DNA of 64,000 nucleotides from Terriglobus albidus (lineage in GTDB: Bacteria; Acidobacteriota; Terriglobia; Terriglobales; Acidobacteriaceae). Numbering within the stretch: position 1 is the first letter of the stretch; each line of letters begins with the position of its first letter. Below the pieces are notes generated by a model. That model worked only from the letters and a program-made list of their open reading frames with translations, did not search any database and was not told the origin of the DNA. Below are positions 14,636 through 54,181 of the stretch, in pieces. A program made the position numbers and the translations under genes. Location of the stretch: NCBI RefSeq assembly GCF_025685425.1, contig NZ_JAGTAS010000057.1, forward strand, positions 248,001 to 312,000. The letters run 5' to 3'.

Positions 14636-15763
14636 ATGCACCAACTCAGGTGGGTCAACGTGAAAGAGAAACGTAACTTCGATCTTCCCGTCGATCCACC
14701 GGTACTCCCCATGCTTTCCAAGCGCGTCGATCAACTACCCGTGGGTTCCGAGTGGATCTATGAACCGAAGTGGGATGGGTTTCGTGCGCTGGTGTTTCGT
14801 GATGGAAAAGAACTTCTGCTCCAGAGCCGGGATACGAAGCCGCTGAATCGATACTTCCCGGAGCTTGTCCAGGCCCTCCTGGAGCAGCTCCCGGAGAGAT
14901 GCGTTCTCGATGGCGAGATTGTGATCTCGAGAAACGGAGCTCTCGACTTCGATGCTTTACAGCTCCGCATTCATCCGGCGGCATCAAGAGTAAAGCTGCT
15001 TAGCCAGCAGACACCTGCCTCGGTCGTGTTTTTCGATCTGTTGGCCCAGGGTAACCGTGACTGGAGAGAGACAGCGTTTCGAGAACGGCGGGCTAAGCTG
15101 CAATCATTGCTTTCCAAAGTAAAGCCGCCGATTCACCTCACACCAGCCACAGACGATCCGGAGTTAGCGCGTGACTGGTTCCAGCGTTTCGAAGGCGCCG
15201 GCTTCGATGGCGTTATCGCAAAGGCAAAAGACAGCACCTACCAATCCGACAAGCGAACCATGTTTAAGGTGAAGCATGAACGTGACTGTGATTGCGTCGT
15301 TGCCGGGTTTCGTTGGTATCGCAAAGGTGACCGGCCGGCAGTTGGTTCCCTGCTGTTGGGTCTCTATGACGATTCCGGAGTACTGCAGCACGTCGGAGTC
15401 TGCGGGAGCTTTCCTCTCAAAAAACGATATGAGCTTGTCGAGTACCTGAAGCCCTATCAGAAGGATGCTCTCGCGAATCATCCCTGGAAGGGGCAGTTGG
15501 ACGAGGAAACGGAAGATGGCGGCGGGCATCGCAGACCCGGAGGCCAGAGTCGCTGGAGTCAAGGCAAAGACCTTTCCTGGGAGCCTCTTCGCCTGGAGCT
15601 TGTTGCCGAAGTGGCCTATGAGCACATGCAGAGTGGACGTTTTCGCCACATGGCGCAGTTTCGCCGCTGGCGTTTTGATAAAAAGCCGGAGGAGTGTACG
15701 TACGAACAGCTTGAGGTCGTGCCACCGGAAGAGCTGAAGGCGATCTTTCCAGAGAATCAATAG
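14636..15763 (+). CDS. ATP-dependent DNA ligase (LigD ligase-domain type)
   Basis: The 375-aa protein has the nucleotidyltransferase motifs of ATP-dependent ligases: motif I EPKWDGFRA with Lys45 as adenylated residue, RCVLDGEIV (III), GFDGVIAK (IV) and MFKVKHERDCDCVVAGF (V), then an OB-fold C-terminal domain. It matches the stand-alone ligase part of bacterial NHEJ LigD. A GTG at 14660 after AGGTGG is an alternative start. It converges with a separate LigD-type polymerase gene, with a 114-bp repeat filling the gap. The TAG stop is also the first three bases of that repeat. Confidence 0.93.
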   Translation: MHQLRWVNVKEKRNFDLPVDPPVLPMLSKRVDQLPVGSEWIYEPKWDGFRALVFRDGKELLLQSRDTKPLNRYFPELVQALLEQLPERCVLDGEIVISRNGALDFDALQLRIHPAASRVKLLSQQTPASVVFFDLLAQGNRDWRETAFRERRAKLQSLLSKVKPPIHLTPATDDPELARDWFQRFEGAGFDGVIAKAKDSTYQSDKRTMFKVKHERDCDCVVAGFRWYRKGDRPAVGSLLLGLYDDSGVLQHVGVCGSFPLKKRYELVEYLKPYQKDALANHPWKGQLDEETEDGGGHRRPGGQSRWSQGKDLSWEPLRLELVAEVAYEHMQSGRFRHMAQFRRWRFDKKPEECTYEQLEVVPPEELKAIFPENQ

Positions 15764-15874
15764 AGCATTTTCACGTCGGTGTAGTGCAGGGGTTCCGCAT
15801 CTATGGGCGTTTTCCGCAATGAAACCCCACTGCACTCCTCTTCAGGGATATCGAGCAACAGGGAAACTGCTCTA
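15761..15874 (-). repeat. 114-bp palindromic repeat, single copy, reverse orientation
   Basis: The element begins TAGAGCATTTTC and ends GGGAAACTGCTCTA, with an inner GGCGTTTTCCGC and an imperfect inverted partner. Its left three bases are the ligase stop codon, and its right end stops 2 bp before the stop of the convergent polymerase gene, so it exactly fills the intergenic space. Confidence 0.9.
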
Positions 15875-15876
15875 AA

Positions 15877-17172
15877 TCAGCCTTTTGCCGGCTGCCGTCG
15901 CGATCTGCCAGCCTTGCGAGTCGGATCGTCGTCCGGGTCCGGAGTCTCCTGGGCTGGCCGCATTGCCTCAGGCACATGACGAAGGTTCACCCGAATCCTG
16001 GTCCATGTGGATGATCGCCCGCGCATGGAATCGACGAGCACATCGTCTATCTCCAAATAGCTAGCCGCTTTTGCGTGTCGCGTCTTCCATCGCTCGAGTC
16101 CAGCCAGAGCAGCATCTTTGTCCGGCGAATTGGCGACCGTTACAAGCGGCATTTTCACCCGGGGCTGCTTTGCGCGGGAGGGCGCCACACGAGTTCCTTC
16201 TCCTTCCGTCTTGCGGAAATGAGGTGGCCAGGGTGCGTCCCCAAGGCCGGCGGCATCGTCTCGCGCAGCCATCTCTAAAAGCCCTTCCAGTGACCCAGCG
16301 TAGGCATCCATATCGGCATGTGCATCCCCTCGCTCGGCAAACAGCCTGGGCACAGTCAACACAGTGAAATCGGCAGGCTCGCAATCTCGCACCTCATTCC
16401 ACGACACAGGCATGGATACGCGGGCATCTGGAAGTGGCCGAACAGAATAGGCTGAAGCTGTCGTGCGGTCCTTCGCGTTTTGGTTGTAATCGAGAAAGAC
16501 TCCGTGGCGTTCTTCTTTCCACCATTTGGATGTAGCCAAAGACGGCGCGCGACGTTCGATCTCGCGAGACAATGCCAGCGCGGCACGCCGCACCTCTTCA
16601 AATGTCCACCGTGGCTCTATGCGGACATTGACATGCATGCCTCGGGAGCCGCTTGTCTTGGGCCATCCCCGGAGCCCGATCTCCTCAAGCAATGCGTGCA
16701 CTTCGAGCGCGATTTTACGAACCTCGTCCCACCCAATGCCTGGACCGGGATCGAGATCGATTCTCAACTCATCCGGATGGTCGAGATCGGTTACCCGAAT
16801 GGCGTGGGGATGCAGTTCGATGCAGCCAAGGTTCACCACCCAGATCAAACCGGCAGCATGATTGACCACCAGTTCTTCGGCAGTTCTTCCAGAAGGGAAA
16901 GAAAGCGTGGCCGTCTGCATCCATGTGGGGTGATCCGCCGGAGCACGTTTCTGGTAGAAAGCCGGCGCCTCGGCGCCATTCACAAAGCGCTTCAATACCA
17001 GCGGACGGTCCCGAATTCCGCCAAGTGCGCCAGATGCGACGGAGAGGTAATAGCGGACAAGATCAAGTTTGGTGAGACGGGTATCCTTCGAGAAATAGAG
17101 CTTCTCAGGATGGGTAATACGTACTTCGTGCCCATCGATCGAGAGAACCTCGGCCGCTTCTGTTTTCGCCAT
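15877..17172 (-). CDS. LigD-type DNA polymerase/primase (PolDom) protein
   Basis: The product (431 aa from the ATG at 17172, with AAGGGAG nine bases upstream) is a LigD polymerase-domain protein of the archaeo-eukaryotic primase fold. It shows ITHPEKLYF, the metal-binding pair Asp139/Asp141 in RIDLDPGPG, TSGSRGMHVNVRI, and KWWKEERHGVFLDYNQNAKD with RPLPDARVSMPV. In NHEJ it fills or extends broken DNA ends, often with ribonucleotides. The C-terminal 130 residues are basic and low-complexity. A longer frame to 17334 only translates repeat DNA. No Ku gene is in the window. Confidence 0.93.
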   Translation of the reverse strand: MAKTEAAEVLSIDGHEVRITHPEKLYFSKDTRLTKLDLVRYYLSVASGALGGIRDRPLVLKRFVNGAEAPAFYQKRAPADHPTWMQTATLSFPSGRTAEELVVNHAAGLIWVVNLGCIELHPHAIRVTDLDHPDELRIDLDPGPGIGWDEVRKIALEVHALLEEIGLRGWPKTSGSRGMHVNVRIEPRWTFEEVRRAALALSREIERRAPSLATSKWWKEERHGVFLDYNQNAKDRTTASAYSVRPLPDARVSMPVSWNEVRDCEPADFTVLTVPRLFAERGDAHADMDAYAGSLEGLLEMAARDDAAGLGDAPWPPHFRKTEGEGTRVAPSRAKQPRVKMPLVTVANSPDKDAALAGLERWKTRHAKAASYLEIDDVLVDSMRGRSSTWTRIRVNLRHVPEAMRPAQETPDPDDDPTRKAGRSRRQPAKG

Positions 17173-17261
17173 CTGACCGCACTCCCTTTCCACCATTTGA
17201 TGCGTCGCAGCCCCGCGACAGAAAAGCTGCCACACACGATATGGTCGTCTTTTGGCGCATC

Positions 17262-17720
17262 TAGAGTATTTTCCCTGTTGCTGGGTATCCCGAAAGAGCA
17301 GTGCTGCGGCGTTTTCATTGCGAAAAACGCCCATAGATGCGGAAGCCCTACACTACACCTGCAGGCAAAATGTTCTAGTCGCATTTTCCCTGTTGCTGGG
17401 TATCCCGGAAGAGCAGTGCTGCGGCGTTTTCATTGCGGAAACGCCGATAGATGCGGAAGCCCTACACTACACCTACAGGGAAAATGCTCTAGTCGCATTT
17501 TCCCTGTTGCTGGGTATCCCGAAGAGCAGTGCTGCGGCGTTTTCATTGCGGAAAACGCCCATAAGTGCGGAAGCCCTACACTACACCTACAGGGAAAATG
17601 CTCTAGTCGCATTTTCCCTGTTGCTGGGTATCCCGGAAGAGAAGTACTGCGGCGTTTTCATTGCGGAAAACGCCCATAGATGCGGAAGCCCTACACTACA
17701 CCTACAGGGAAAATGCTCTA
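17262..17720 (+). repeat. Tandem array of four 114-bp palindromic repeats
   Basis: Four units start near 17266, 17381, 17495 and 17609 with a 114-bp period. Each begins GCATTTTCCCTGTTGCTGGG (first unit GTATTTT) and ends ACAGGGAAAATGCTCTA, with a central hairpin GGCGTTTTC / GAAAACGCC. The units differ by few bases, so they likely arose by recent tandem amplification. The array fills the space between the LigD polymerase start and the multicopper oxidase start, so either promoter must lie within or beside it. Confidence 0.95.
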
Positions 17721-17736
17721 ACGGGTTTGAGGAGAC

Positions 17737-19434: not shown

Positions 19435-19450
19435 ACACTATCGACATTTC

Positions 19451-20758: not shown

Positions 20759-21102
20759 TGAGAGTATTTTCCCTGTTGCTGGGTATTCCGAAAGGGCGTG
20801 AAGCGGCGTTTTCATTGCGGAAAACGCCGATAGATGCGGAGACCCAACTCTACACCTACAGGGAAAATGCTCTAGTCGCATTTTCCCTGTTGCTGGGTAT
20901 CCCGAAGAGCAGTGCTGCGGCGTTTTCATTGCGGAAAACGCCCATAGATGCGGAGACCCAACTCTACACCTACAGGGAAAATGCTCTAGTCGCATTTTCC
21001 CTGTTGCTGGGTATCCCGAAGAGCAGTGCTGCGGCGTTTTCATTGCGGAAAACGCCCATAGATGCGGAGACCCAACTCTACACCTACAGGGAAAATGCTC
21101 TA
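20759..21102 (+). repeat. Tandem array of three 114-bp palindromic repeats
   Basis: Units begin near 20764, 20878 and 20992 with an exact 114-bp period between the last two. They share the GCATTTTCCCTGTTGCTGGG start, the GGCGTTTTC / GAAAACGCC core and the ACAGGGAAAATGCTCTA end. Compared with the 17-kb array, all three share the variant GAGACCCAACTCTAC, so each array amplified locally. The last CTA (21100-21102) is the complement of the TAG stop of the next minus-strand gene. Confidence 0.95.
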
Positions 21103-22140
21103 GTGGATCTCGTTCATGGCTGCTACGGTCGTTACCGGCGGCCGATTTGGAGCTTCGGCAAAGACCCACACTCCTCGAAAGTTTTGCCGAAGTGCAGGAT
21201 GTTGCTTCAGAAATGCACTCATAGCGTCGCGGTTACGCTTCTCCGCCACCGCCGGATCCGTGATGGATGGATCCATCTGCATATGAATCGCGATATCCAA
21301 CTTATCTGCGTGGAGGCCATTATCCGGAGCGATGGAAAAGAAGCGGTACGCCGTACCATCGTCTCCTTTGACGAGTAGCGGTGAGTCCGCGCTGATTCCA
21401 TTGGCAAGCTCCGGAGGCAGCGCATTCGAAGATTCGGAGCGAAGGCTTTCCAGATGAGTACTGGAAACAAAGACGGCAGGCTGAAGTAGCTGCCTGGCCT
21501 GCTGATAGTAGATATAAGCTACCCACGGTTCTTTGCTGGCCGCCATGGTCCGACCCTGGCGCCAGTACCATAAACCATCATGTCCGGCTGCTGAGTCCTC
21601 TTTCGGGAAGAGACCCGCGAGCTTCCAAGGGCTACCTGAGCTATCCTGCCGCAACAGCATGGAGAGGGTCCAGGGAGAAGAGCCTACAAAATCCACCATC
21701 GCAAACGCGTAGCGGCCTGGCGGTAGCCCTGGAATGCTGAAGTCCGCCTCAGCATTTTTACCACCGTTGAGTGTGCAGAAAAATTCGGCGTTTGGGAAGG
21801 TACCGTCGGCATTACGAGTGTTACTACTGGCGTCGAGTATATATACCTGCTCAACTTCAGCGCTCTTCCCTGCCAGCTTGGGAGATACCGTAGTGATGGC
21901 GCTGGCGATGCCACTGAAGTTCGAGGCAAACTCCGGGATCGTCGCCGCCTGTACTCCAGCCTGATCGTTTGCCTGGACCTTCCGCGCCAATGCCAATGAG
22001 TCATCCGCCAGCGCGTTCCTCTCAGCCGATTGCATCTTTGATTGCGTCGTACACGTTTCAGCACGAACCTGATAAGGAAGAGTCAGCAACATTCCCGTGC
22101 AGAATGTTAACCAAAAGCTCCGCTTCATCGATCGCTTCAT
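21100..22140 (-). CDS. Exported hypothetical protein
   Basis: The 346-aa protein has a signal peptide (FWLTFCTGMLLTLPYQVRA) and is otherwise soluble. Recognisable pieces are a small beta-sandwich-like segment (DFSIPGLPPGRYAFAMVDF) and a repeated Trp/Tyr-rich stretch (GLWYWRQGRTMA, YIYYQQARQLL). No catalytic motif is seen. AAGGAT lies six bases before the ATG. Its stop codon TAG is the terminal TAG of the adjacent repeat array. It lies just downstream of the TonB-like gene on the same strand and may share its transcript. Confidence 0.75.
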   Translation of the reverse strand: MKRSMKRSFWLTFCTGMLLTLPYQVRAETCTTQSKMQSAERNALADDSLALARKVQANDQAGVQAATIPEFASNFSGIASAITTVSPKLAGKSAEVEQVYILDASSNTRNADGTFPNAEFFCTLNGGKNAEADFSIPGLPPGRYAFAMVDFVGSSPWTLSMLLRQDSSGSPWKLAGLFPKEDSAAGHDGLWYWRQGRTMAASKEPWVAYIYYQQARQLLQPAVFVSSTHLESLRSESSNALPPELANGISADSPLLVKGDDGTAYRFFSIAPDNGLHADKLDIAIHMQMDPSITDPAVAEKRNRDAMSAFLKQHPALRQNFRGVWVFAEAPNRPPVTTVAAMNEIH

Positions 22141-26734: not shown

Positions 26735-26949
26735 TAGAGCATTTTCCTGTAGGTGTAAAGCATCTATGGGCCTTTTCCGCAATAAAACGCCGCTGCACTC
26801 CTCTTCCGGGATACCCCAGCAACAGGGAAAATGCGATTAGAGCATTTCCTGTAGGTGTAAAGTAGGGCTTCTGCATCTATGGGCGTTTCCGCAATGAAAA
26901 CGCCGCTGCCTTCTCTTCCGGAATACCCAGTAACACGGGAAATGCTGTA
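26735..26949 (-). repeat. Two 114-bp-family repeats, reverse orientation
   Basis: Two adjacent copies begin TAGAGCATTTTCC (26735) and TAGAGCATTTCC (26838). The first lacks about 14 bases in the left arm. Both contain the GGCGTTTTCATT-type hairpin in reverse and end near GGGAAAATGC / GGGAAATGC. They are more diverged than the array copies. Confidence 0.85.
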
Positions 26950-27990: not shown

Positions 27991-28062
27991 TAGAGCATTT
28001 TCACTGTTGCTTGGTATTCCGGCAGAGGAGTGCAGCGGCGTTTCCATCGCGGAAAACGCCTA
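27991..28062 (+). repeat. Half copy of the 114-bp repeat
   Basis: The 72-bp piece starts TAGAGCATTTTCACTGTTGC and continues through the GGCGTTTCC...GGAAAACGCC hairpin. It then ends at CTA (28060-28062), the complement of the stop codon of the phosphoesterase gene. The right half of the element is missing. Confidence 0.85.
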
Positions 28063-30759
28063 CGGCCCAAAGTTCGTAGGTGTGCAGGAGTTGTATCCGA
28101 GTGTGTTGTCGGACACAGGGGTTGGAGGTGTCGGCGGTGTGGCCCAGGGTGTAGCGGTGAAGTCGAAGAAATCCGTCAGATCCGGTTGAGCCTTATCGCG
28201 TTCGGTGAGGTGCTCCGAGGCTCCGAGGAAGCGGTTCTGAACAAACTTCAGAATTGCCGTGTGATCCATCGGGATATGCGAGACATAGTGCTTCCGGACG
28301 TATGGAGAGATAACCATATTGGGCACCCGAAAACCCAGTTGCGCGGCGAAGCCCAATTTAGCCGGCGCATCGTTGACGTTCGCACCGGGCTGTGATGGTC
28401 TCAGGTCGCAATGCTGGGTTGGAGTTCCTCCTGGCGGCACACAGGGATAGTATGTGTCCGGGTTCACGGCGATCGTCCCTATATCCGGAATGCTTGCAAC
28501 AGAGATGTCGCCAACCATTGAATCGGTATAGTCATTCGAATGTGTGGGAACCGGGGGCACGTGATCGTAAGGACCACCGCCCTCATCATAGGCCAGGAAG
28601 AAGACAGAGTTCATCCAGGAAGAACTTGTCATCAATGCATTTACGATCTTCGCAACCTGCTGCTGTCCGACGAGAATTGATTGTCCCGAACCAGGATGCT
28701 CATCGTTTATCCCGTAGCCGGCTTCGATAAATGCGAAACTCGGCAATGTTCCGTTTGCCAGGTCGGTGTAGTACGACGACAGGGGTGCGATGTGTGTCGG
28801 ATCGATGCAAAACGAGTTCGACGAGTCACCAACCACGCTCGATGGCTGGGTCGGGGCGGCACAGGCGCCTCCCGATGGATTCGAATGAAGGTAGGTATAG
28901 GAGTCGGCAAGCTGCGAGAAGTTTGTTGCCGGATACGTGGCGGATGCTCCTCCGCTCTGGCAGTCGTCAGGATCGAGACACCCCCCTTGGGTCACTGTGT
29001 AGTAAAGCTTCCAGGAGACATTCGCGGCAGTCAGCTTGGCGAAAATCGTAGGAATCTGCAACTGTGGCAGGCCGTCATCGTTACCGGGGTCCAGAGCAAG
29101 CCCTTGGGTCGTGCCTCCGGTAAAGGTCGCGATGCGGTTCGGGATGCTCTTGCTGGATACAGGCGAGAACCAGCGATCGGACAAGGCAAACTGAGACGCC
29201 ATGTAGTAGTAATAGTTCAGGAAACCCTGATCGTAATACCCCATGGCGCGACGCCCAGTAAAATCACTGAAGGTTCCGGCACATCCTTTACCTGCCGCCT
29301 GACAATTCTTTGCATAGTTTTCATTCGTATGTACGAAGCCATCCATCAGGATTGACCTGCCAAGCGTGAAGTCATACCGGCTGGCATCACCATAGCTTTC
29401 GAGCCATGAGGATGTCTCGTCTTCGACACAGCTACTGGTCAGTTTGAACAGAGAATAGGATGTTCCCTCATCGCTCTGATTGCTTATCTTGGATAGTTTG
29501 TCATCGATACCATCGACATCGTAGGTCTTTGCATCGTCACCGACGTTCCAGTTGTTCGCCAGACGATAGGGATTCAGCATGCCGAAGTACTGGTCGAAGC
29601 TGTGGTTCTCCTGCAGCATGAAGATGACATGGCGAATGGATTGCAAATCCGCTGTCACCGTCACTTTTGCCGTAGCAGTTGCATTGCCTCCACTTGAGCC
29701 AGTTGCTGTGGCGGTGTAGGTCGTGGTTGCAGACGGCGTCACATTCTGGGTTCCACCGGTCGCCGACAGGGTATAACTGCTGCCGTCTGTCCCGGTAATG
29801 ACAACCTTCGTCGCATTCGTCGCGGTCGCGGTCAGGACCGAAGATCCGCCGGGTGAGATGGAAGTAGGATTGGCGCTCAGAGTGACCGTTGCCGGGCTAC
29901 CCGTCACTGTCACAGTTGCGGTGGCGGTAGCTGCGCCGCCACTGACGCCCGTGGCAGTTGCCGTATAGGTCGTGGTCGCAGACGGTGTGACATTGTGGCT
30001 CCCGCCCGTCGCCGGAAGCGTATAACTGCTGCCGTCTGTCCCCGTAATAACAACCTTCGTCGCATTCGTCGCAGTCGCGGTGAGGACCGAAGATCCGCCG
30101 GGTGAGATGGAAGTAGGGTTGGCACTCAGGGTCACCGTTGCGGCATTCGCCGTGACTGCCACCGCTGCGGTGGCCGTCGCTGTCCCACCGGTTGTACCGG
30201 TGGCTGTCGCCGTATAAGTGGTGGTTGAAGACGGTGTCACGTTCTGGGTACCGCCGGTCGGCGACAATGTATAGCGACTGCCATCTGTGCCAGTAATCAC
30301 AACCTGCGTCGCATTCGTCGCGGTTGCTGTAAGTACCGACGATCCGCCAGGCGCCACCGACGTAGGATTGGCGCTCAAGGTGACCGTGGGCGGGTTGGCC
30401 GCTGCACCTACCGTTACGGTTGCAGTAGCGGTGGCGCTCGCCCCTCCAAGCCCCGTTGCGGTGGCTGTATACGTGGTTGTCGCAGATGGAGATACGCTCT
30501 GGGTCCCGCCCGGCGGCGACACCGTATAGCTGCTCCCGTCACTTCCTGTTACGGAGATATGCGTAGCATTCGTTGCGGTTACGGTCAGGACGGCCGTCCC
30601 CTCAGCAGAGATGGAATTCGGATTGGCACTCAAGGTGACCAGGACAATCGGGTTACCTGACATGCCAGAACCGCATCCACTCAACATCAACAGTAAGGAT
30701 AGGAAAACGACCCACTTCGCCCTTAGCAGGGCACGCCAATTGAGGACAGCACCGAGCAC
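28060..30759 (-). CDS. Phospholipase-C-type phosphoesterase lipoprotein with four Ig-like repeats
   Basis: The product (899 aa from a GTG at 30759 with AGGAG seven bases upstream) has a lipoprotein signal (FLSLLLMLSGC). Four Ig-like repeats of about 81 residues follow, each with VTLSANPTSISPGGSSVLTA. A phosphoesterase domain of the phospholipase C/acid phosphatase family comes next, beginning IRHVIFMLQENHSFDQYFG and containing AYDEGGGPYDHVPP near the C-terminus. It should cleave phosphodiester or phosphomonoester substrates at the cell surface. A frame to 30819 exists without ribosome-binding support. The TAG stop belongs to a half repeat. Confidence 0.9.
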   Translation of the reverse strand: MLGAVLNWRALLRAKWVVFLSLLLMLSGCGSGMSGNPIVLVTLSANPNSISAEGTAVLTVTATNATHISVTGSDGSSYTVSPPGGTQSVSPSATTTYTATATGLGGASATATATVTVGAAANPPTVTLSANPTSVAPGGSSVLTATATNATQVVITGTDGSRYTLSPTGGTQNVTPSSTTTYTATATGTTGGTATATAAVAVTANAATVTLSANPTSISPGGSSVLTATATNATKVVITGTDGSSYTLPATGGSHNVTPSATTTYTATATGVSGGAATATATVTVTGSPATVTLSANPTSISPGGSSVLTATATNATKVVITGTDGSSYTLSATGGTQNVTPSATTTYTATATGSSGGNATATAKVTVTADLQSIRHVIFMLQENHSFDQYFGMLNPYRLANNWNVGDDAKTYDVDGIDDKLSKISNQSDEGTSYSLFKLTSSCVEDETSSWLESYGDASRYDFTLGRSILMDGFVHTNENYAKNCQAAGKGCAGTFSDFTGRRAMGYYDQGFLNYYYYMASQFALSDRWFSPVSSKSIPNRIATFTGGTTQGLALDPGNDDGLPQLQIPTIFAKLTAANVSWKLYYTVTQGGCLDPDDCQSGGASATYPATNFSQLADSYTYLHSNPSGGACAAPTQPSSVVGDSSNSFCIDPTHIAPLSSYYTDLANGTLPSFAFIEAGYGINDEHPGSGQSILVGQQQVAKIVNALMTSSSWMNSVFFLAYDEGGGPYDHVPPVPTHSNDYTDSMVGDISVASIPDIGTIAVNPDTYYPCVPPGGTPTQHCDLRPSQPGANVNDAPAKLGFAAQLGFRVPNMVISPYVRKHYVSHIPMDHTAILKFVQNRFLGASEHLTERDKAQPDLTDFFDFTATPWATPPTPPTPVSDNTLGYNSCTPTNFGP
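29645..30640 (-). repeat. Four in-frame ~243-bp repeats inside the phosphoesterase gene
   Basis: The Ig-like units are encoded by four tandem stretches of about 243 bp, and the last two (nearest the catalytic domain) are nearly identical in DNA as well as protein. Such repeats can gain or lose units by recombination, changing the length of the surface stalk. Confidence 0.85.
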
Positions 30760-30873
30760 TGTATTTCTCCTATCCCACTGGGGAGTGGAATGTGCCGCAA
30801 ACATCAGAGATACAACCAAGAACCCAAAAGCTCTGCTACTTCAAACTCCATTGCATATTCGTGATGCATACAA

Positions 30874-39824: not shown

Positions 39825-40687
39825 TGAAACCGCGAGTATTGCTTTTACTTACTCTTGCTCTGCCGCTATCGAAGATGCCTGCTCAGGAAATGCAGGTCCC
39901 GAGCACGGTGACGGCCGGGAGCGCCTTCGCCGTCACCACCACTGGTAGCGGAAAGGCCGTGTTGTACATTGTCGGCCCAGGACAGGCACTTCGCCGGGAC
40001 CTCCAGCTTGGAGAACGTGTCTCATTTGCCACAGGGGAGCTATACAGCGCTGGACACTACACAGCCGTACTGGCAACCGAGTCCTCGGCGAAAAACGCGG
40101 AATTTGATGTGCTGCCCGCAACGCAGCCCGGCTCGCTGGGATTTCTTGCAAAGCCCTCTCGTTTGCCGGTCAATGTGGCCAATGGCATAAGTGGCTCGAT
40201 GTATGTCTTCGACTCGTACCATAACCTCATCACCACCCCAATGCCTGCAACCCTTGAGCTGTCCATCGCGGGTGGAGCAACACTCACTCGCACGGTGACG
40301 ACGCGCAACGGACTGGCGTGGGCCACGATGAACTCAGCCACCAAAGAGGGCTCAGCACGCTTCACAGCGCGCGTTGGAGATATCTCAAGCACACGCATCA
40401 TTAATCAGGTCCCGGGAGAACCTTGTTCCATCTCCATCAGCGCCAGACCCAACGGATCGAAATTGGAAGTACAGACGGCGCCTGTGCGTGATTGCAGCGG
40501 AAATACGATCCCCGATGGCACCATCGTCACGTTTATCGAAACCCTTGGTAATTCCCAATCCACAGTTGATGTACCACTGAAGAAAGGCATCGCCAGCGTG
40601 GTCATGCCAGCGAACAAAGGATCGAAGATATCTGCCGCTAGTGGCGCCGTAGCAGGAAACGAAATTCATTGGGATGGTGGCCGCTGA
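39824..40687 (+). CDS. Exported beta-rich hypothetical protein, module gene 3
   Basis: The product (287 aa) starts at GTG 39824, overlapping the preceding TAG by one base. It has a signal peptide (VLLLLTLALPLSKMPAQ) and at least two Ig-like beta units (MQVPSTVTAGSAFAVTTTGS and PADGTIVTF-like stretches near the end). It is probably periplasmic or surface-exposed. Its position inside the coupled four-gene module is the only hint of function. Confidence 0.8.
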   Translation: MKPRVLLLLTLALPLSKMPAQEMQVPSTVTAGSAFAVTTTGSGKAVLYIVGPGQALRRDLQLGERVSFATGELYSAGHYTAVLATESSAKNAEFDVLPATQPGSLGFLAKPSRLPVNVANGISGSMYVFDSYHNLITTPMPATLELSIAGGATLTRTVTTRNGLAWATMNSATKEGSARFTARVGDISSTRIINQVPGEPCSISISARPNGSKLEVQTAPVRDCSGNTIPDGTIVTFIETLGNSQSTVDVPLKKGIASVVMPANKGSKISAASGAVAGNEIHWDGGR

Positions 40688-41181
40688 TGAAGCCAATTGC
40701 CTGTCTGACTTCGGCTCTCCTGCTCTCGGCGACTCTGCTCGCAGAGGAACCCGCGGTGCGCGTGGCTCCTCCCCAGCTTCAGGGTTCCCGGCCGCTGGAG
40801 CAGCAGACCGAGTCCTCGGTTATCCGCAACTATCTGGAGTCATGGAAGAGCCTGCAGGAGGCGCTTGATCACAACCAGGCCGGCAAACTCGACCGGGATT
40901 TTGTTGGCGTAGCCAGAGATAAGCTGGGCGATACCGTCGAAGCGCAGAGCCGGATGGGAATACACACGCACTACCAGGATCTTTCCCACGATCTGCAGAT
41001 CGTCTTCTATTCGCCGGAGGGTCTGTCGATCCAGATGACCGACAACGTCGAATACCGGCAGCAGATCTTCGAAAAGGATAAGCTTCTAGCCACGACAGTG
41101 GTCCGCCGGCGCTATCTTGTTGTTCTGACTCCTTCTGAAGTCCGTTGGCAGGTCCGAATCCTGCAAGCTGGACTCGACTAG
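40687..41181 (+). CDS. Exported hypothetical protein, module gene 4
   Basis: The 164-aa product starts at an ATG (40685-40689 reads TGATG) that overlaps the previous stop. It has a signal peptide (CLTSALLLSATLLA) and a compact alpha/beta body (NYLESWKSLQEALDHNQAG, then VVRRRYLVVLTPSEVRWQV). No family is recognised. The stop TAG is the first three bases of a 114-bp repeat that follows, closing the module. Confidence 0.8.
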   Translation: MKPIACLTSALLLSATLLAEEPAVRVAPPQLQGSRPLEQQTESSVIRNYLESWKSLQEALDHNQAGKLDRDFVGVARDKLGDTVEAQSRMGIHTHYQDLSHDLQIVFYSPEGLSIQMTDNVEYRQQIFEKDKLLATTVVRRRYLVVLTPSEVRWQVRILQAGLD

Positions 41182-41294
41182 AGCATTTTTCCAATTGCTG
41201 GTGTTCCAGAAGAGGAGTGCAGCGGCGTTTTCATTGCAGAAAACGCCCACAGATGGGAATCCCTACTCTACCCCTCTACAGGGAAAATATTCTG
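41179..41294 (+). repeat. 114-bp-family repeat, single copy
   Basis: It starts TAGAGCATTTTTCC, has the GGCGTTTTCATTGCAGAAAACGCC hairpin core split into two inverted 9-base arms, and ends CAGGGAAAATATTCTGA. The right end has lost the TGCTCTA match, so this copy is older than the array copies. Its TAG is the stop of the upstream gene. Confidence 0.9.
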
Positions 41295-45611: not shown

Positions 45612-46355
45612 ATGAAACGGATTTTGCCTGAAAAGAGGCCGCTCCTCATAAGCTTTTCCGGTATCGATGGAGCCGGAAAGAGCACCCAGATTGCGTTGCT
45701 CCGCGACGTTCTGCGATTGTCGGGACAACAGGTCCAGGTGGTTACCTTCTGGGACGATGTCGTCGCGCTTAAGTCTTTCCGGGAAGATGTGGGGCACAAA
45801 GTTTTCAAAGGCGACCGCGGAGTCGGTTCTCCGGAAGCTCCCATTCATCGACGGGACAAGAACGTTCAATCACCCATGCTCTCCTGTATTCGGATGGCAC
45901 TCTACGCGCTGGATCTTCTATCGTTGCGCCGAACGGTAAAGAAGCTCGTTCGAGCGGCGGAAGATCGTGTCGTAATCTTCGATCGCTTCCTCTATGACGA
46001 GCTTGCCAACCTGCGGCTGGACCGTCCTCTTCAGCGCTTGTATGTCCACGCAATCCTACGGTTTGTTCCAAAGCCGGATCTTGCCTTTGTCCTGGACGCC
46101 GATCCCGACGCAGCGTTCGCCCGCAAGCCGGAATATCCTCTGCAGTTTCTGCGCTCGAACCGCATGGCGTATCTCCGTCTCGCTGAGATTGCGGGAATGA
46201 CGGTAATTCCCCCCTCAAACGCGGAGCATGCACACTGTGAGATCTGCCGCCACGTCGAAGAAAAGAAACATGCCCTGCTCTCCGAAGGAAAGTCAGGGCA
46301 TGAATCGCATGGGGATGAGAGATTGTTTTCCGGCCCGGTCTCTACCAGTACGTAA
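45612..46355 (+). CDS. Thymidylate-kinase-like P-loop protein
   Basis: The product (247 aa from the ATG at 45612) has a Walker A motif GIDGAGKST (residues 17-25), a DR-type motif VIFDRFLYDELANL, and a C-terminal lid (PDPDAAFARKPEYPLQF), as in the thymidylate kinase superfamily. Family members of this size in polysaccharide loci are often not housekeeping Tmk, and the substrate is unknown. It starts 13 bp after the previous gene and its last 14 bases overlap the convergent Ig-domain gene. A longer frame from 45570 adds only repeat-poor residues. Confidence 0.85.
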   Translation: MKRILPEKRPLLISFSGIDGAGKSTQIALLRDVLRLSGQQVQVVTFWDDVVALKSFREDVGHKVFKGDRGVGSPEAPIHRRDKNVQSPMLSCIRMALYALDLLSLRRTVKKLVRAAEDRVVIFDRFLYDELANLRLDRPLQRLYVHAILRFVPKPDLAFVLDADPDAAFARKPEYPLQFLRSNRMAYLRLAEIAGMTVIPPSNAEHAHCEICRHVEEKKHALLSEGKSGHESHGDERLFSGPVSTST

Positions 46356-47616
46356 AGTGGAAGTTGTCCAGCGCGGTGGTATAGCCATCCATCTTGTAAT
46401 TGCCATCCATTTGATAATTGACCGTCATGCCCCACCATCCAGAGGGAACTGATTTTGGAGCGACAGTGATATTCAGCGGATAAACCACTCCGTTTACGGT
46501 GATGGACTGATAGAGAAGATCATTGTTTGCCTGACGATGAGCCTGTAATGTTACGTGGTTCCACCCATCTTTGAGCGTGCACGGGATAGACGTCGGTACC
46601 CATCGGGCTTCAACGTTGTTCCAATAGTCCCAGACATTGCCGTTCAGATGGTTACACTCAGTTCCCCATTCCATACCAACTCCACCGGCGTACATATTCA
46701 GGTCGAACTCAAGCACCTGCGTAACCGCCCAATTGCTCACATATACGTCGGTGTCATAGAGAAAGTCATGCAATGTCGGCAGGAGAGTGTGGCTTTCGTC
46801 CGTCAATCCCTGTTTGTTCCCATGCCCGATGACAGGGTTGGAGAAGAGAACGTCCGAATAGGGAGTTGTACCTCCAAGATAGAACTGCGTTGCGTTTCCA
46901 CTGAGCGAAGGCGTCTTCTGGTTCTGTATCATCGACCAGTTGACTCCCGGACAGGGTGCATCGCAGATGTCATAGACAGGCGGTAACTGTCCCCACTGAT
47001 TCCATCCGGGAGCGGCCTGTAGATTTGTGAGCCTGGTTCCCGTAACGGTGACATCAATGGGCGTTGTCGCGGTTCCTCCACAGTTATCCCACGCCTGAAC
47101 GACCGTGGATTGCCGCCCATGTCCCATGGTGATTGGCGTGGCGAGCGTTGAACCGGCGACCTTATAAACGAGCTGATGATTGACGTAAATGCCCATAGCA
47201 GAAACGCCCTTGTCACAAGCGGTTGTGGCACTCGCGACATAGATCGCCGGAGTTCCTACCTTGCTGCCGTTTGCGGGTGAAGCTACGTTTACACCGGAGG
47301 AGGAGGAGGAGGTCAGATCCAACGATGTGTAGGTAGCGCCGCCACAGTAATCCCATTCCTGCACCACGACACGGTGTTTGCCCGGGCTAAGAGAAATGGA
47401 TGAGTCCAGATTGGTTCCGTCTACGACACGTTGTAAGGCATGGTCGACATAGATGCCCATCGATGCGACCCCTTTGGAGCAGGACGTCGTGGCACTCGCA
47501 GTGACCCGGACAGATGGTCCGACGGTCGTGTTGTTGGTGGGTGAAGTAACTGCAACTGTAGCAAGCGCTGGAATGGCGCAGCCAAAGAACAACATCAAAC
47601 GAACAAAGACGTTCAT
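46342..47616 (-). CDS. Secreted protein with two Cys-containing Ig-like modules, paralog 1
   Basis: The 424-aa protein has a signal peptide (RLMLFFGCAIPALA), two Ig-like modules of about 80 residues (each with SC near the start and W-D-x-CGG near the end, suggesting a disulfide), and a C-terminal domain of about 210 residues. The C-terminal domain reads SLSGNATQFYLGGTTPYSDV, VLEFDLNMY and ends FHFTYW. Two close paralogs lie at 54584 and 56375, and the module also ends the FG-GAP proteins. It is likely exported; a carbohydrate-binding role for the C-terminal jelly-roll-like part is a guess. Confidence 0.85.
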   Translation of the reverse strand: MNVFVRLMLFFGCAIPALATVAVTSPTNNTTVGPSVRVTASATTSCSKGVASMGIYVDHALQRVVDGTNLDSSISLSPGKHRVVVQEWDYCGGATYTSLDLTSSSSSGVNVASPANGSKVGTPAIYVASATTACDKGVSAMGIYVNHQLVYKVAGSTLATPITMGHGRQSTVVQAWDNCGGTATTPIDVTVTGTRLTNLQAAPGWNQWGQLPPVYDICDAPCPGVNWSMIQNQKTPSLSGNATQFYLGGTTPYSDVLFSNPVIGHGNKQGLTDESHTLLPTLHDFLYDTDVYVSNWAVTQVLEFDLNMYAGGVGMEWGTECNHLNGNVWDYWNNVEARWVPTSIPCTLKDGWNHVTLQAHRQANNDLLYQSITVNGVVYPLNITVAPKSVPSGWWGMTVNYQMDGNYKMDGYTTALDNFHFTYW

Positions 47617-47979: not shown

Positions 47980-48663
47980 ATGCGTCAGAGAAATATCAAA
48001 AATCGCTTTCAAGATCAGGCTGCAAAGTTAACTTTGGCTTCGTTTGCGCTCGTCATCATGTCAGTAGCAGGTTCCCTTTGTTGGGCACAAACGACTCCAC
48101 AGTCAACCGCGGTCACAAAGAGTCATGTACGGTCTCGCGAGAAGCCGAATTCCAAGATCGTCAGCCTTGCTCCAGCACCTGCGCCGGCGGCTAGTCCCGC
48201 AACCGTCCACCTCAATGGCGGAATGCTGACCGTCCATGCGAATAACTCCGAGCTCCGCCAAGTCCTGCAGGACATCTCAAGAGAGAGTGGCATGGCGATT
48301 CAGGGTCAGATCAGAGATGCGCGGATCTTTGGCAGCTACGGTCCAGGAGAGCCATCGGCGGTTCTCACCGAACTCCTGGCCGGCCAGGGTTACAACATCC
48401 TGATAGTTGGCGGCGGCCCGCAAGGCGCTCCGCGGCAACTGCTACTCACTGATCGCAGTAGCGGTCCCTCTCTTCCTCCTCCGCAGACCATCATCCAGAA
48501 CAACGCCGAAAGAGTCGAGCTCGGCCCAGGCGCAATCGCACATCCTCCACCAGAGGCCGTGGACGATCCCCAGATGCGCACGTATCTCCGCGACCGAAAG
48601 TTGCAACAGATGTACGAGTCACAGGAGAAGGAAAATAAGGGAAACCCCGCTCCTCCTAAATAG
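47980..48663 (+). CDS. Exported STN-domain-like protein
   Basis: The product (227 aa from the ATG at 47980) has a signal-like segment (LTLASFALVIMSVAGSLCWAQ) and a segment like the STN (secretin/TonB short N-terminal) domain: LTVHANNSELRQVLQDISRE, then GYNILIVGG. Pro-rich, charged tails flank it. STN domains are docking modules of outer-membrane machines, so a periplasmic partner role is likely. It is followed 105 bp later by the VWFA gene. A TTG start at 47944 is possible but weaker. Confidence 0.75.
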   Translation: MRQRNIKNRFQDQAAKLTLASFALVIMSVAGSLCWAQTTPQSTAVTKSHVRSREKPNSKIVSLAPAPAPAASPATVHLNGGMLTVHANNSELRQVLQDISRESGMAIQGQIRDARIFGSYGPGEPSAVLTELLAGQGYNILIVGGGPQGAPRQLLLTDRSSGPSLPPPQTIIQNNAERVELGPGAIAHPPPEAVDDPQMRTYLRDRKLQQMYESQEKENKGNPAPPK

Positions 48664-48768
48664 ACAAACAACGTTGAAGGGCCCGGTTGTCATCCAACCA
48701 AGCGTACGTTGAAGATTGTGGCAGTACCTCAATCGGAATCCTACGGATCTTCGTTCGACCAGGTATCT

Positions 48769-49836: not shown

Positions 49837-49994
49837 CCAATCACTCTCAGGCCTCGGCAACACACTTGAATCCGAGGTATGGGAAGACTTTTGTTCCTGT
49901 ACGAGAATTATTTGAAAATCGAGCAACCATCCGGCTAACGAAAGACTCCTTTAGTGCGCACTTCAATCACAAGGCTCGCCCTCAGGAGTCCCCC

Positions 49995-51767
49995 ATGCGG
50001 TTCCCTTTTGTCTTTGTCCCACTTCTATTAGCCAGCACCTCCCTTCTTCCGGCGCAAACCAATCTAAGCTTTGAACTGAGTCGCGATACCTACATGGCCT
50101 TCGGCGTCGAGGCCATGGCACAAGGTGACTTCAACGGCGACGGCAAGCCCGACATGGTCTTCGGCGGTGGCTCCAGCTTTACCACGATTACGCTGCGCCT
50201 GGGCAATGGCGACGGGACCTTTCAGCCGCCGATCACTGTAGGACAGGCGGACAGCTCAGAGGTGGAAGACATAGCCGCCGCCGACCTCAACCAGGACGGC
50301 AAGCTGGATGTCATCGTTCTTTGTATCGGAGGCACCTTCGATGTCTTCCTCGGCAATGGAGACGGAACTTTCCAGCCTGCGGTCGCAGCGGCTACCGCGG
50401 GTTCTCCGCGTGCCATGGCGGTAGGCGATTTCAACGGAGATCATCGCCCTGACCTGGCGATCGGCGATACGCAAGGCTCGGTCGAGATTTTCAACAATAC
50501 AGACGGTAAAAACTTTGTGTTGAGCAACACAGTTCCGATCGATCCGACCAGGGGCATCCTGAATGTGAAGGCCGGCGATTTCGACAACGATGGAATCACG
50601 AATCTTGCGGTGCTCACCTCTAATTCCGCCTATGTCCTCTGGAACGACGGACACGGAAATTTCAGGAAGAGTGCCCTGACCGCTTACACCAGCCCCGCCG
50701 GACTCAACGTCGGTGATCTTAACCAGGATGGGATGGCAGACATCCTCATCTCCTATGACTGCAACCCCAACCCCCAGAATCCTAGCGCCAAAGGGCCAAT
50801 CTCCACGTGCGAAGGTGTCGATGTCTTCTATGGGCAAGGACAGCAGAAGACCTTCGCTCGCCACATCATCACCGCGGATACAGTTGGAGCCGCGAGATAT
50901 CTATGGGCCGCTGACGTAAACGGCGATGGCATCGGCGATCTTGTCACCGGCACCTCTGACCAGAACGGCAGCCAGACAGGGCTCTTCGTCTGGCTCGGCC
51001 ACCCGGATGGTTCCTTCGATCAGCGTGCAAACCGCTTCATCGCAACCTCGAACGGTGCGGGCCAACTTGTCCTGGCCGATTTCAACCGCGATGGAATGAT
51101 CGACGTCGCACAAGCTCTTCCCGGAGATGCACAGACCCAGATCTATCTAAATGCGACCAACCGGGCTCCCTGCGCGACGAGTCAGATCAATCCGGCGGTC
51201 ACAGTATGCCAGCCTGTGGACAATACCTATCTTCCCGCTCCCACGATCACGGTAGAGGCCAATGCGTATGACTCAAACCAAGTGACGGCAATGCAGTTAT
51301 ATGTCAATGGTTCCCTAGCCTACTCGCAACCGGTCACTGATTTCTCCCAAACCTTCCAGCTCGGAGAAGGCTCTTTTTATCTCGTCACTAAAGCATGGGA
51401 CTATACCGGTCTGAGCTTCAGGTCGGTCCGGCATGTGACGCTCTATAACGGGACACCAGGGTCTGTCTGCCCGGCTGCGCTGGGAACCGCAGAGATCTGC
51501 CTTCCCTCCGGCGCGACCGCCTCTTCCCCCGTGCATATCGTTGCGAATGGCTATACCTCCTATGTGCCAACCGCAGCGCAGCTCTATATTGACGGCAACC
51601 TCGTCATCAACAACACAAGCTGCAACAACTATGGGGCTTGCCCCGGCGGATCATCGCTTGTTGATACCTATCAAGGCCTCTCCAGCGGTAGCCATGACCT
51701 GGTCTTCAAATTATGGGACGCCACTGGGAACATCTACAGCGCTGATAAGACCATTACTGTCCAATAG
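49995..51767 (+). CDS. Secreted FG-GAP/VCBS-repeat protein with Ig-like C-terminal modules, copy 1
   Basis: The product (590 aa from the ATG at 49995 with AGGAG six bases upstream) has a signal peptide (RFPFVFVPLLLASTSLLPAQ), about seven FG-GAP beta-propeller blades (DFNGDGKPDMVFGG, DLNQDGKLDVIVL and similar calcium-binding loops), and two C-terminal Ig-like units (ITVEANAYDSNQVTAMQLYV; WDYTG). It is extracellular. FG-GAP propellers bind proteins or sugars, and none of the blades suggests catalysis. A second copy lies divergently at 52129. Confidence 0.88.
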   Translation: MRFPFVFVPLLLASTSLLPAQTNLSFELSRDTYMAFGVEAMAQGDFNGDGKPDMVFGGGSSFTTITLRLGNGDGTFQPPITVGQADSSEVEDIAAADLNQDGKLDVIVLCIGGTFDVFLGNGDGTFQPAVAAATAGSPRAMAVGDFNGDHRPDLAIGDTQGSVEIFNNTDGKNFVLSNTVPIDPTRGILNVKAGDFDNDGITNLAVLTSNSAYVLWNDGHGNFRKSALTAYTSPAGLNVGDLNQDGMADILISYDCNPNPQNPSAKGPISTCEGVDVFYGQGQQKTFARHIITADTVGAARYLWAADVNGDGIGDLVTGTSDQNGSQTGLFVWLGHPDGSFDQRANRFIATSNGAGQLVLADFNRDGMIDVAQALPGDAQTQIYLNATNRAPCATSQINPAVTVCQPVDNTYLPAPTITVEANAYDSNQVTAMQLYVNGSLAYSQPVTDFSQTFQLGEGSFYLVTKAWDYTGLSFRSVRHVTLYNGTPGSVCPAALGTAEICLPSGATASSPVHIVANGYTSYVPTAAQLYIDGNLVINNTSCNNYGACPGGSSLVDTYQGLSSGSHDLVFKLWDATGNIYSADKTITVQ

Positions 51768-51978
51768 TTCGACTGCGGCTGGAAATACTCCAGCCGCGGT
51801 TGGTAACCCCAAGACCTGGGCGTGCTCCAGGCCGATATTGAGCGTACGTCTGGTCCTTATGATCATGACCTTTGCTTGTCATTTCTTAGCGCCGCGGAGA
51901 AATCCGCTTTTCTAGCGATGCTTTCTTACTTTGGTGTCCTGAATCTAAAGTTCGCTACATAAATCAAGAAAAGCATTT

Positions 51979-52026
51979 GTCACCCTGAACGGTGAAAAGC
52001 AGGTCCTTCACTCTGTTCAGGATGAC
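51979..52026. repeat. Palindromic CHPEQSEGP-type intergenic repeat
   Basis: GTCACCCTGAAC at the left and GTTCAGGATGAC at the right form an 11/12-match inverted repeat around GGTGAA...TTCAC. This is the family of dispersed bacterial palindromes whose chance translation gives CHPEQSEGP, which appears here in a spurious minus-strand frame. The surrounding 51768-52128 gap holds no supported gene. Confidence 0.6.
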
Positions 52027-52128
52027 AACATTTATGACAAGAATTTCTGAGCCACCACGCGACAAAGCCGCGATGAATGTGGCAACAAGAGCGCTGACTC
52101 AATCGAATTTCTCGATATGCTCCAAGGC

Positions 52129-53961
52129 TTACTCTACGTAAATTGTCTTCTGGTCCTGATATACATTGCCCGCAAGGTCCCACACTTTGAAGACGAGATT
52201 GTGCGATCCGGACGATAGGGCCTGTTCCGTCTGTACCATCGTATTGAGGCCATAACAGGCTACCCCGCAAGAGGCTTCATTGTTCACGACCAGATTGTCA
52301 TCGATATAAAGCTGTGCAGAGGTTGTGAGGCTTGTCCCGGTATTCCCATTGCCCACAATCAAAACAGGTCCGGAGCTACTCGTCCCTTTTGGCAAACAAA
52401 GCCTGGCGGTGTTCATCGCCGCATAGCAGGTGGCTCCGGGCGTCCCGTCGTACACCGTTATTGTCCTCGAGGACATGAAGCTCGCCCCGCTTGCATCCCA
52501 GCCTTTGGTCACAAACAGATGGGGACCCTCGCCCACCGGGAATCTCTGGTCGAAGCTCGTTACCGGCTCAGAAAACTTCAGCACACCGTCGACGTATTCT
52601 TGAAGAGCGGTCACCTGTGCCGTGTCGTAGCTATGGGCATGAACACGCACGGAGCCCCGCGAATAGGTATTGTCTACCGGGGCACACACCGTTACAGAGG
52701 GACTGATCGTATAGGTCCCGCAACTCTCTCGCCGCGACGCGTTCAGATAGAACTCCGTCGGCCCGCCGGCTCCAGGTTGCGTCTGGGCAAAGTCCATCCT
52801 TCCGTCGCGATTGAAATCCGCCATAACGGCTGCGCCCACCTGCACATTCCGCGAGGTGAAGAAGTTCTCTGGAGTCTGGAGAAATGATCCGTCGGCATTT
52901 CCCCGCCAGATCGAAAGGCCCTGCGGTGCATCATTACACTCTCCGGTGGAGCTATCACACTGCAGAGCGCCAATCGCGGCGATATCGATATAACCATCTC
53001 CATCCACATCGACGCCTGCAATCTTCCCAAGATCTCCGGGATTTAAGCCTGACGTCGAATTGACCAGCGTTCTCTTATAAAGCCTGTTCTCTCCCTGCCC
53101 ATAGAAACCATCAAACCCTACGCAATAGCTGGATCCTGCCGGAAGAGCGCACTGATAGCTGACAAGGATGTCTGCGTTCATGTCTCCGTTTATCTGAGCG
53201 CTTGTGATTTGCGGCCATGAGTATTGACCGAGCACCTGCCGGTTGAAGCTCCCACTACCGTTGTTCCATAAGACACTCAGTTCCGATGGCATTGCGAAGT
53301 CATTGGAATTCAGAACAAGGGCCGCAAGGTCAGAGATTCCCGTGCCGTTCAAACTCCCTGCTACCACTTGAACGGGGCTGAAGTTTCCAGTACCGACCGA
53401 TATGGAACCCGCAAAGACAAATGTTCCATCTCCACTGTTACGGAATAGCTCAATCAGTCCATACGATTCGCCAACTGCAATATCCGGATAACCATCATTG
53501 AAGAAATTTCCGACAACGGCTTGCCCAGGACCTTGAGTGGTTGCATAGACCTCTGGTACCCGAAACGTGCCATCCCCATTCCCCAGAAAGATACTCAGCA
53601 CATATGTACCTGACGCCGGAGGAGAGGGTGGATTCTGGGATGCGACAGTAACCAGATCAAGGTTGCCATCATGATTGACATCCGATGCAACGCCACCCTG
53701 CAGCGCAAGAGCATCAGCAAATGCTGTTACTGGCGGCTGAAATGTACCATCTCCTTTGCCGGCTCGAAAGACCAAACGTTGCGTTGGACTGCAGCATTGG
53801 ACCAGGTCAACTTTGCCGTCATGATCAAAGTCAGCTGCGATCAACGGACCACTGCCCCCGTTCGACCTATCTCCATAGCTCTCGAAACTAAGCGGTGATT
53901 GGCTGTAAAGCCGTGACGTGCACATGGCCACGATAGCGACTACAACAAGTCGTGAAAGCAT
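52129..53961 (-). CDS. Secreted FG-GAP/VCBS-repeat protein with Ig-like C-terminal modules, copy 2
   Basis: The 610-aa protein has a signal peptide (LVVVAIVAMCTSRLYSQ), FG-GAP blades with calcium loops (DFDHDGKVDLVQ, DVNHDGNLDLVT, DVDGDGYIDIAA), and two C-terminal Ig-like units with VHAHSYDTAQVTALQEYVDG and YIDDNLVVNNEASCG. It has the same architecture as the 49995 gene and is its paralog. The two are convergent and separated by a 361-bp gap with an intergenic palindrome. It is probably a surface or extracellular binding protein. Confidence 0.88.
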   Translation of the reverse strand: MLSRLVVVAIVAMCTSRLYSQSPLSFESYGDRSNGGSGPLIAADFDHDGKVDLVQCCSPTQRLVFRAGKGDGTFQPPVTAFADALALQGGVASDVNHDGNLDLVTVASQNPPSPPASGTYVLSIFLGNGDGTFRVPEVYATTQGPGQAVVGNFFNDGYPDIAVGESYGLIELFRNSGDGTFVFAGSISVGTGNFSPVQVVAGSLNGTGISDLAALVLNSNDFAMPSELSVLWNNGSGSFNRQVLGQYSWPQITSAQINGDMNADILVSYQCALPAGSSYCVGFDGFYGQGENRLYKRTLVNSTSGLNPGDLGKIAGVDVDGDGYIDIAAIGALQCDSSTGECNDAPQGLSIWRGNADGSFLQTPENFFTSRNVQVGAAVMADFNRDGRMDFAQTQPGAGGPTEFYLNASRRESCGTYTISPSVTVCAPVDNTYSRGSVRVHAHSYDTAQVTALQEYVDGVLKFSEPVTSFDQRFPVGEGPHLFVTKGWDASGASFMSSRTITVYDGTPGATCYAAMNTARLCLPKGTSSSGPVLIVGNGNTGTSLTTSAQLYIDDNLVVNNEASCGVACYGLNTMVQTEQALSSGSHNLVFKVWDLAGNVYQDQKTIYVE

Positions 53962-54064
53962 GACTGGGAGAACCTCCTGCGAATCAACGAGACATGAAAT
54001 GTTCGGTACGCACTGGCATAGTTCTTATGGCGTGAGCTTATTTACAAGTTGTGATGGGATTGTT

Positions 54065-54181
54065 TAAAGCATTTTCCCTGTTGCTGGGTATCCCGGAAGG
54101 ATCGTGCCGCGGCGTTTTCATTGCGGAAAACGCCCATAGATGCGAATGCTCTGGACTACACCTACAGGGAAAATGCTCTAG
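54065..54181 (+). repeat. 114-bp-family repeat, single copy
   Basis: It begins TAAAGCATTTTCCCTGTTGC, contains the GGCGTTTTC / GAAAACGCC core and ends ACAGGGAAAATGCTCTAG. It is close to the array consensus. It lies upstream of the minus-strand FG-GAP gene; the remaining 54182-54583 gap has no supported gene. Confidence 0.9.

Follow-up and report, generated by a model that had tools for sequence, protein, structure and literature searches.

Within a 64,000-nucleotide stretch of the Terriglobus albidus genome (contig NZ_JAGTAS010000057.1, positions 248,001 to 312,000; G000:C39:248001-312000 in our numbering, and hereafter the window), we describe a short palindromic repeat that constitutes a new IS630-type family of miniature inverted-repeat transposable elements (MITEs). 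The copies of this element lie in the native stop codons of host genes far more often than its target motif and the density of genes predict. We consider it very probable that the element is a non-autonomous, Tc1/mariner-like MITE of the IS630 group that inserts into TA dinucleotides, with half of its clean copies in host stop codons, and that it is stranded in the genomes that carry it. The placement may reflect either a transposase that aims at stop codons or selection that spares mainly the copies found there.

The repeat comprises ~112 bp between two TA dinucleotides and contains no gene; 29 of the 37 single copies flanked by both TAs measure 110 to 112 bp. Like a MITE by definition, it has no transposase of its own, is shorter than ~200 bp, and occurs in many copies. 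The 6.1-Mb genome of T. albidus studied here (G000; 58 contigs) holds 569 matches to GCATTTTCCCTGT with at most one mismatch, against 2 for a reversed control, and 347 matches to the 24-base core with at most three mismatches, against 0 in the control. Densities and stop codon placements were counted in four stretches of unselected sequence totaling 1.6 Mb, 800 kb from this genome and 800 kb from that of a second species (G002), which yielded 83 copies at 70 sites and 56 copies at 56 sites, respectively. Extrapolated to whole genomes, these densities give roughly 630 copies in G000 and 450 in G002. The initial annotation of the window had called the copy density high; the repeat is indeed far above chance, and with 83 copies in 800 kb of the same genome its density is nothing special to the window. 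The ends TAGAGCATTTTCCC and the core hairpin GGCGTTTTC/GAAAACGCC are as that annotation described them; copies internal to tandem arrays start TA-GTCGC or TA-ATCGC rather than TA-GAGC.

The TA is duplicated upon insertion. A single TA at empty sites in a relative had been proposed as a check, and the comparison of G000 with G002 supplies it: with the flanks joined via a single TA, 27 of 62 sites can be spanned in the other genome, and the other 35 comprise 21 that lack a clear TA on both sides and 14 that are not spanned. Thirteen of the spanned sites align gap-free over 22 bases and read exactly TA at nine places, TG at three, and CA at one; TA is also found at 10 of the 14 spanned sites with gaps. 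A few spanned places hold remnants and are not truly empty, such as the shortened copy opposite G002:4553928, a ~50-bp internally deleted copy in G000 that keeps both ends. Seven of the 37 G000 sites were flagged as having a copy in each species; in one such case, 289181, the two copies sit in the stops of two neighbouring genes. The counterparts of the window's four-, three-, and two-copy arrays are empty in G002.

These empty sites bear directly on an alternative that the initial annotation offered as a REP/BIME-like element: a repetitive extragenic palindrome (REP), a bacterial interspersed mosaic element (BIME), or a REP doublet forming a hairpin (REPIN), in which a hairpin repeat is moved as single strands by an IS200-type transposase (Y1, or REP-associated tyrosine transposase [RAYT]). 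Y1 transposases are not known to duplicate a TA on insertion. The consensus does fold strongly (−51 versus −30.6 kcal/mol for shuffles; z −6.2), its core hairpin is well conserved in a set partly chosen by that core, and the G000 genome encodes ten Y1-type genes. A copy of the repeat, however, lies within ~2 kb of just three of the ten (two were examined to 1.5 kb), about what a density of one site per 11 kb gives; Y1 genes also occur in genomes that do not carry the repeat, and the ends of the element match those of IS630 elements. With the TA duplicated and the RAYT genes flanked no more often than copy density gives, this alternative fails, and we assign it only a very small probability. 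Two loci on another contig of the same genome, L118 and L135 (G000:C28), are IS200-type transposase matches with 151-amino-acid frames and the top Y1_Tnp scores in the search of the genus.

The ends of the element point to a specific group of transposases. A search of 19 genomes of the genus with PF13358 gave six matches in four genomes, among them a copy in G014 (L156) that spans 1020 bp between TAs, carries GAGCATTTTC at both ends, and encodes DDE_3 and HTH_Tnp_IS630 domains in two overlapping frames. In a wider search of the Acidobacteriaceae, relatives at E 1e-20 or better were present in 57 of 398 genomes. Among 30 IS630 loci examined, several of them cut by contig ends, 19 have at least one end of the MITE type, and six (L162, L166, L169, L170, L171, and L183) have both. 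An IS630 element with matching ends, which the initial annotation asked for in this or related genomes, thus exists in the same genus and in the wider family. Six further matches to the end pattern, which lacked GAGC or were second matches, were dropped before end profiles were compared. The consensus of the transposase 3′ side (16 ends) is TAGAGCATTTTCCCTATTGCTGTAGAGC and the left end of the MITE is TAGAGCATTTTCCCTGTTGCTGGGTATC, which agree at 21 of the first 22 bases; the consensus of the 5′ side (9 ends) is TAGAGCATTTTTCCTGAAGGTGTATAGT and the right end of the MITE is TAGAGCATTTTCCCTGTAGGTGTAGTGT, which agree at 22 of 24. The first ten bases belonged to the pattern that picked the ends, and positions 13 to 24 are independent of that choice. 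Over those positions, 79 of 20,000 random windows score as well as the left end on the 3′ profile and none of 20,000 as well as the right end on the 5′ profile; on these scores, the right end is assigned clearly and the left end only weakly. Shared ends and single-TA empty sites together bear out the reading that the initial annotation preferred, a TA-inserting MITE of the IS630 type. That reading foresaw neither the concentration in stop codons nor the altered left end within arrays.

The expected donor is to be found in a related genome, as anticipated, while none was found in the carriers, which was not. Resident IS630 elements were considered as donors and rejected: the G000 copy (L158) ends in TTGATTCCTGC, the G015 copy ends in GTGTACGG, and a search of the G002 copies gave no TA-flanked inverted ends. 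Since no end-matched IS630 element was found in the carrier genomes, the MITE looks stranded in the hosts it now occupies, within the limits of that search. The window itself was said to lack a transposase, and this holds for two families, IS630 (PF13358) and IS200/RAYT (PF01797), as their listed matches in the genome are all on other contigs, and for a Pfam search of ten window open reading frames (ORFs). At ~4526920-4527090 of G002 (locus L230) lies a longer element whose ends are GAGCATTTCTCC...GGAGAAATGCTC and whose core is similar; it may represent another MITE subfamily belonging to this IS630 group.

Any match to the element was present in 8 of 101 genomes searched. Among the 19 genomes belonging to the genus, four hold hundreds of copies, with core counts of 347 (G000), 263 (G002), 228 (G012), and 230 (G015). 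In a search of 150 genomes, four of the other 146 have one core-like match each: those in G010 and G109 are recognisable diverged relatives in which the core is the same and the ends are altered, and the remaining two look chance-like. When 21 bases of the element were compared with named genomes, Granulicella mallensis X5P3 and Acidobacteria metagenome assemblies were among the matches listed, and the host is accordingly treated as related to Granulicella. Blocks syntenic with the window are ~82 to 90% identical in the other three carriers and, where they match, ~65 to 73% identical in the rest of the genus. The expansion therefore belongs to one group. Copies average 10 to 12% off their common consensus, in a set partly picked by similarity. 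Viral contigs were considered as carriers and set aside, as they gave two chance-like 17-base matches and no element. In another genus, a hairpin at locus L037 (G035) closely resembles the MITE core and has no MITE ends.

The placement of the copies was unexpected. Across the four stretches, 53 of the 126 sites are at a stop codon, 7 are inside a gene, and 66 are elsewhere. In the first two stretches, 28 sites lie at most 4 bp from a called stop (19 of 37 and 9 of 25), and two stretches were then added as a test. A strict count was confined to the 76 of 126 sites with a TA on both sides; in 38 of these 76 copies the TA forms the first two bases of the stop codon of a called gene, and the share is alike in each stretch (12/24, 8/17, 9/18, and 9/17). 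If copies fell on stops in proportion to their share of non-coding TAs, 5.0 would be expected; allowing for the 4-mer around the TA raises this to 9.3, and a target matrix for which the 38 non-stop sites were the training set gives 8.8 (P 2e-16). Read from the far flank, the triplet before insertion at the 38 stop sites was TAA in 19 cases, TAG in 18, and TAT in 1, which marks these as native stops and not as genes truncated by the element. Because both ends of the element begin with G, its first base turns the stop that it splits into TAG. Outside the four stretches, a frame of at least 100 codons enters the boundary TAG in 14 of 28 copies versus 9 of 56 for the other frames; 467 of 1984 random non-coding TAs have such a frame running in.

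Orthologues point the same way. Five of the 28 stop sites in the first two stretches have no orthologue in the stretch, and 23 were compared. At 13 the site is clearly empty in the other species and the gene ends at the same residue; five of these empty orthologues use TGA, one transition from TAA. Four further comparisons with the same end residue are two loci occupied in both species, viewed from each side, and in another four, also with the same end residue, the other species has a copy that is degenerate or shortened, or what may be a remnant. The two that disagree are a 5-residue difference and a 32%-identical paralogue.

The element does not enter TAs indiscriminately. In the orientation of the element the target is WY-TA-NCG (CGN-TA-RW on the other strand), alike at stop and non-stop sites, and CGN-TA-RW resembles a sense codon followed by a TAA or TAG stop. 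None of the 76 sites is in ATAC, GTAC, or ATAT, versus 27% expected (P 2e-6 for the non-stop subset of 38), and CTAG and CTAA exceed their frequency in non-coding TAs 4.9-fold and 2.7-fold, respectively. IS630 itself prefers CTAG as a target. The six complete insertion sequences (ISs) in our set are inserted in CTAT, CTAG, CTAA, CTAG, CTAG, and TTAG. At stops, 28 copies are opposite in strand to the gene and 10 are on the same strand, a bias that the target motif fits. As modelled, the motif predicts ~9 of the 38 stop codon sites, a share that could rise with a better model of the target.

Two accounts of this excess divide our judgment almost evenly. One holds that insertion is random among TAs that fit the motif, that hits in coding and regulatory sequence were purged, and that stops remained as safe places. 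Only 7 of 126 sites lie inside called genes, versus 77% of TAs outside the elements; a neutral landing needs nothing beyond TA plus the G that the element itself supplies; and complete ISs do not show the placement (a long frame enters the boundary in one of six). Such purging should nevertheless leave non-coding TAs beside stops about equally safe, yet stops are 4-fold above the motif-corrected expectation. Non-stop copies, moreover, show no depletion between divergent genes, where promoters lie (14/38 versus 2421/9396 TAs), and are few between convergent genes (3/38 versus 2051/9396), although these numbers are small. We judge this account to have somewhat under an even chance. The other account, which we put forward tentatively and rate slightly lower still, is that the transposase and its element evolved a safe-landing device, in which a stop-mimicking target (CGN-TA-RW) and ends that start with G would favour entry into native stops, which are then rebuilt as TAG. 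Such a device, if real, would have let the element multiply into the hundreds in a genome packed with genes while sparing the proteins.

A third possibility is that the repeat is a functional RNA or regulatory hairpin retained at the 3′ ends of genes, its mobility long past. Many copies do directly follow a stop codon, the core hairpin is the best conserved part (again in a set partly chosen by core), and the core recurs with diverged ends in two other genomes. Among 46 copies from the first two stretches, the stems hold 19 two-sided changes (cells) versus 7.6 by shuffling, all of them in the terminal stem; subfamilies with matched ends could be their source. Against a retained function, the core has no pair with a two-sided change, and such pairs total 5, a figure within the range of shuffles (142 of 500 reach it). 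The window has no Rfam match at the gathering score, the strand relative to the gene is mixed, and few sites are occupied in both species. We consider this explanation unlikely.

Several points weigh against a stranded IS630 MITE placed in native stops. Genes were called by a home-made model, 50 of the 126 sites have no recognisable TA on one or both sides and stand outside the strict count, and orthologues were compared only for the 28 stop sites in the initial pair of stretches. The excess at stops could be partly or wholly selection. A long open frame enters the boundary TAG in one of the six complete ISs (L166), and we therefore do not extend the stop codon placement to the ISs. The left end of the MITE is barely better on the 3′-side than on the 5′-side profile (79 versus 183 of 20,000 random windows), the right end also does well against the 3′ profile (4 of 20,000), and L174, one of the 16 "3′-side" ends, resembles the other type; similarity between the MITE and the ISs stops ~24 bases in. 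Finally, G012 has no PF13358 match, and GAGCATTT is absent from the five IS630 loci of G000, G002, and G015 within the stretches examined, so donor and recipient were not found together in one cell.

With these points in mind, we propose the following history for the IS630-type MITE. A transposase with ends TA|GAGCATTTTC... would have recognised both ends of the element in trans, cut the element out, and joined the copy to a TA, which was thereby duplicated; the ends and the empty sites are observed, and the chemistry and the action in trans are inferred. The target is WY-TA-NCG rather than any TA, and a stop codon so entered is rebuilt as TAG via the terminal G. The transposase was presumably lost from, or never resident in, the carrier genomes searched, and the copies are therefore probably immobile now and decaying. 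Tandem arrays arose through secondary duplication, and those in G000 share a changed left end at their internal junctions.

All 18 arrays read in G000, two of which run up to a contig end and could belong to a single array, have internal junctions of TA-NTC-GC, TA-ACC-GC, or TA-TC-GC. Seven arrays come from G002, G012, and G015. In six of them the units share a normal TA-GAGC or TA-AAGC junction, although one locus is counted there in two species, and the seventh (L242, G015) has TA-ATC-GC. Because the arrays were taken from lists of best matches, they do not sample the genomes at random. The changed internal left end is probably unable to act as a transposon end. Units are more alike within an array (0.92 to 0.95) than between arrays (0.85 to 0.88), and in-place duplication or levelling is therefore at least as likely as movement of arrays as blocks. 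Block movement found no support, as first units are no closer across arrays once the ends are excluded (113 of 2000 permutations reach the observed value). The right flank TAATCGC at G000:C39:464514 is similar to the array junctions, and this place was considered as their birthplace; the orthologous place in G002, which holds a longer, different element and a partial copy, does not bear this out.

Within the window, every copy in the initial annotation was found at its place, and four of its seven sites coincide with stops; of these four, 15761 belongs to the strict set. The single copy at 15761..15874 (minus strand) supplies, as its left TA plus G, the TAG stop of a ligase-domain ORF (14636-15763); this ATP-dependent DNA ligase ORF faces a LigD primase-polymerase ORF (15877-17172), with the MITE copy between them. 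A four-copy array at 17262..17720 (plus) has TA-GTCGC at its internal junctions, and a three-copy array at 20759..21102 (plus) forms with its right end the stop of a minus-strand ORF (21100-22140); the latter is outside the strict count, as its left flank is TG, and its far flank would read TAT. A two-copy array at 26735..26949 (minus) has the junction TA-ATCGC. The half copy at 27991..28063 (plus), a left half plus core, adjoins the stop codon of a minus-strand ORF (28060-30819). The single copy at 41179..41294 (plus) supplies TA plus G as the stop of ORF 40669-41181 and is likewise excluded from the strict count, its right flank being TG; another single copy is at 54065..54180 (plus). Other features of the window include a 919-amino-acid minus-strand ORF of the phosphoesterase family with three 249-bp (83-codon) tandem repeats at 29647-30437, and three ORFs with matches to the bacterial immunoglobulin-like domain Big_7, at 46342-47616 (minus), 54566-55897 (plus; below the curated cut-off), and 56189-57658 (plus), within or between which stretches of 116 to 131 bp are 70 to 74% alike.

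It has long been asked how small mobile elements can number in the hundreds when four-fifths of the host genome is genes. The present element occupies the places where it can do least harm and brings with it the letter that repairs the stop it splits, and may thus illustrate a way for parasitic DNA to multiply in a crowded genome at little cost to the host. Single-TA empty sites, shared ends, and the IS630 group together name a concrete candidate for its transposase. In the literature covered by our search, outside of which most subscription journals lie, neither this element nor MITEs in native stop codons are described in the available parts of the sources, including PMC5900883, PMC5896051, PMC2759123, and PMC6382973.

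Among the known systems closest to it are the Acidobacteriaceae IS630-type elements with GAGCATTTTC ends, which share its terminal bases and a YTAR-like target but are ~1.0 kb long with a transposase, do not share its inner sequence beyond ~24 bases, and, in the six complete ISs, do not show the stop codon placement. Beyond the family, the element groups in kind with RUP, ERIC, and MITEPlu5. Correia/NEMIS of Neisseria, of ~107 or 155 bp, resembles it in size class, terminal inverted repeats, TA ends, and the comparison of filled with empty sites, but has another host, and no matching IS is reported in the accessible portion of the review (PMC2229807). RUP of pneumococcus (107 bp, ~110 copies) is like it in size, copy number, TA target, and ends in common with an IS630-type element, IS630-Spn1; it differs in its host and in its proposed frequent location within or close to IS elements, and the available text of its descriptions makes no mention of stop codon placement (PMC2229807 and PMC3049150). 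A further parallel is MITEPlu5/ERIC (MITEEc1) of the enterobacteria, which according to the available part of its description is ~123 bp long, has 552 complete copies in one genome, duplicates a terminal TA, folds strongly, and has ends that resemble a subset of IS630 elements, likenesses that extend to the hundreds of copies seen here. Its described ends differ, related ISs are resident in its hosts whereas none was found in the carriers here, and stop codon placement is not mentioned in that part of the account (PMC6267812). If the placement should prove true for ERIC, RUP, and Correia as well, then the label "intergenic" given to TA-inserting MITEs hides a rule.

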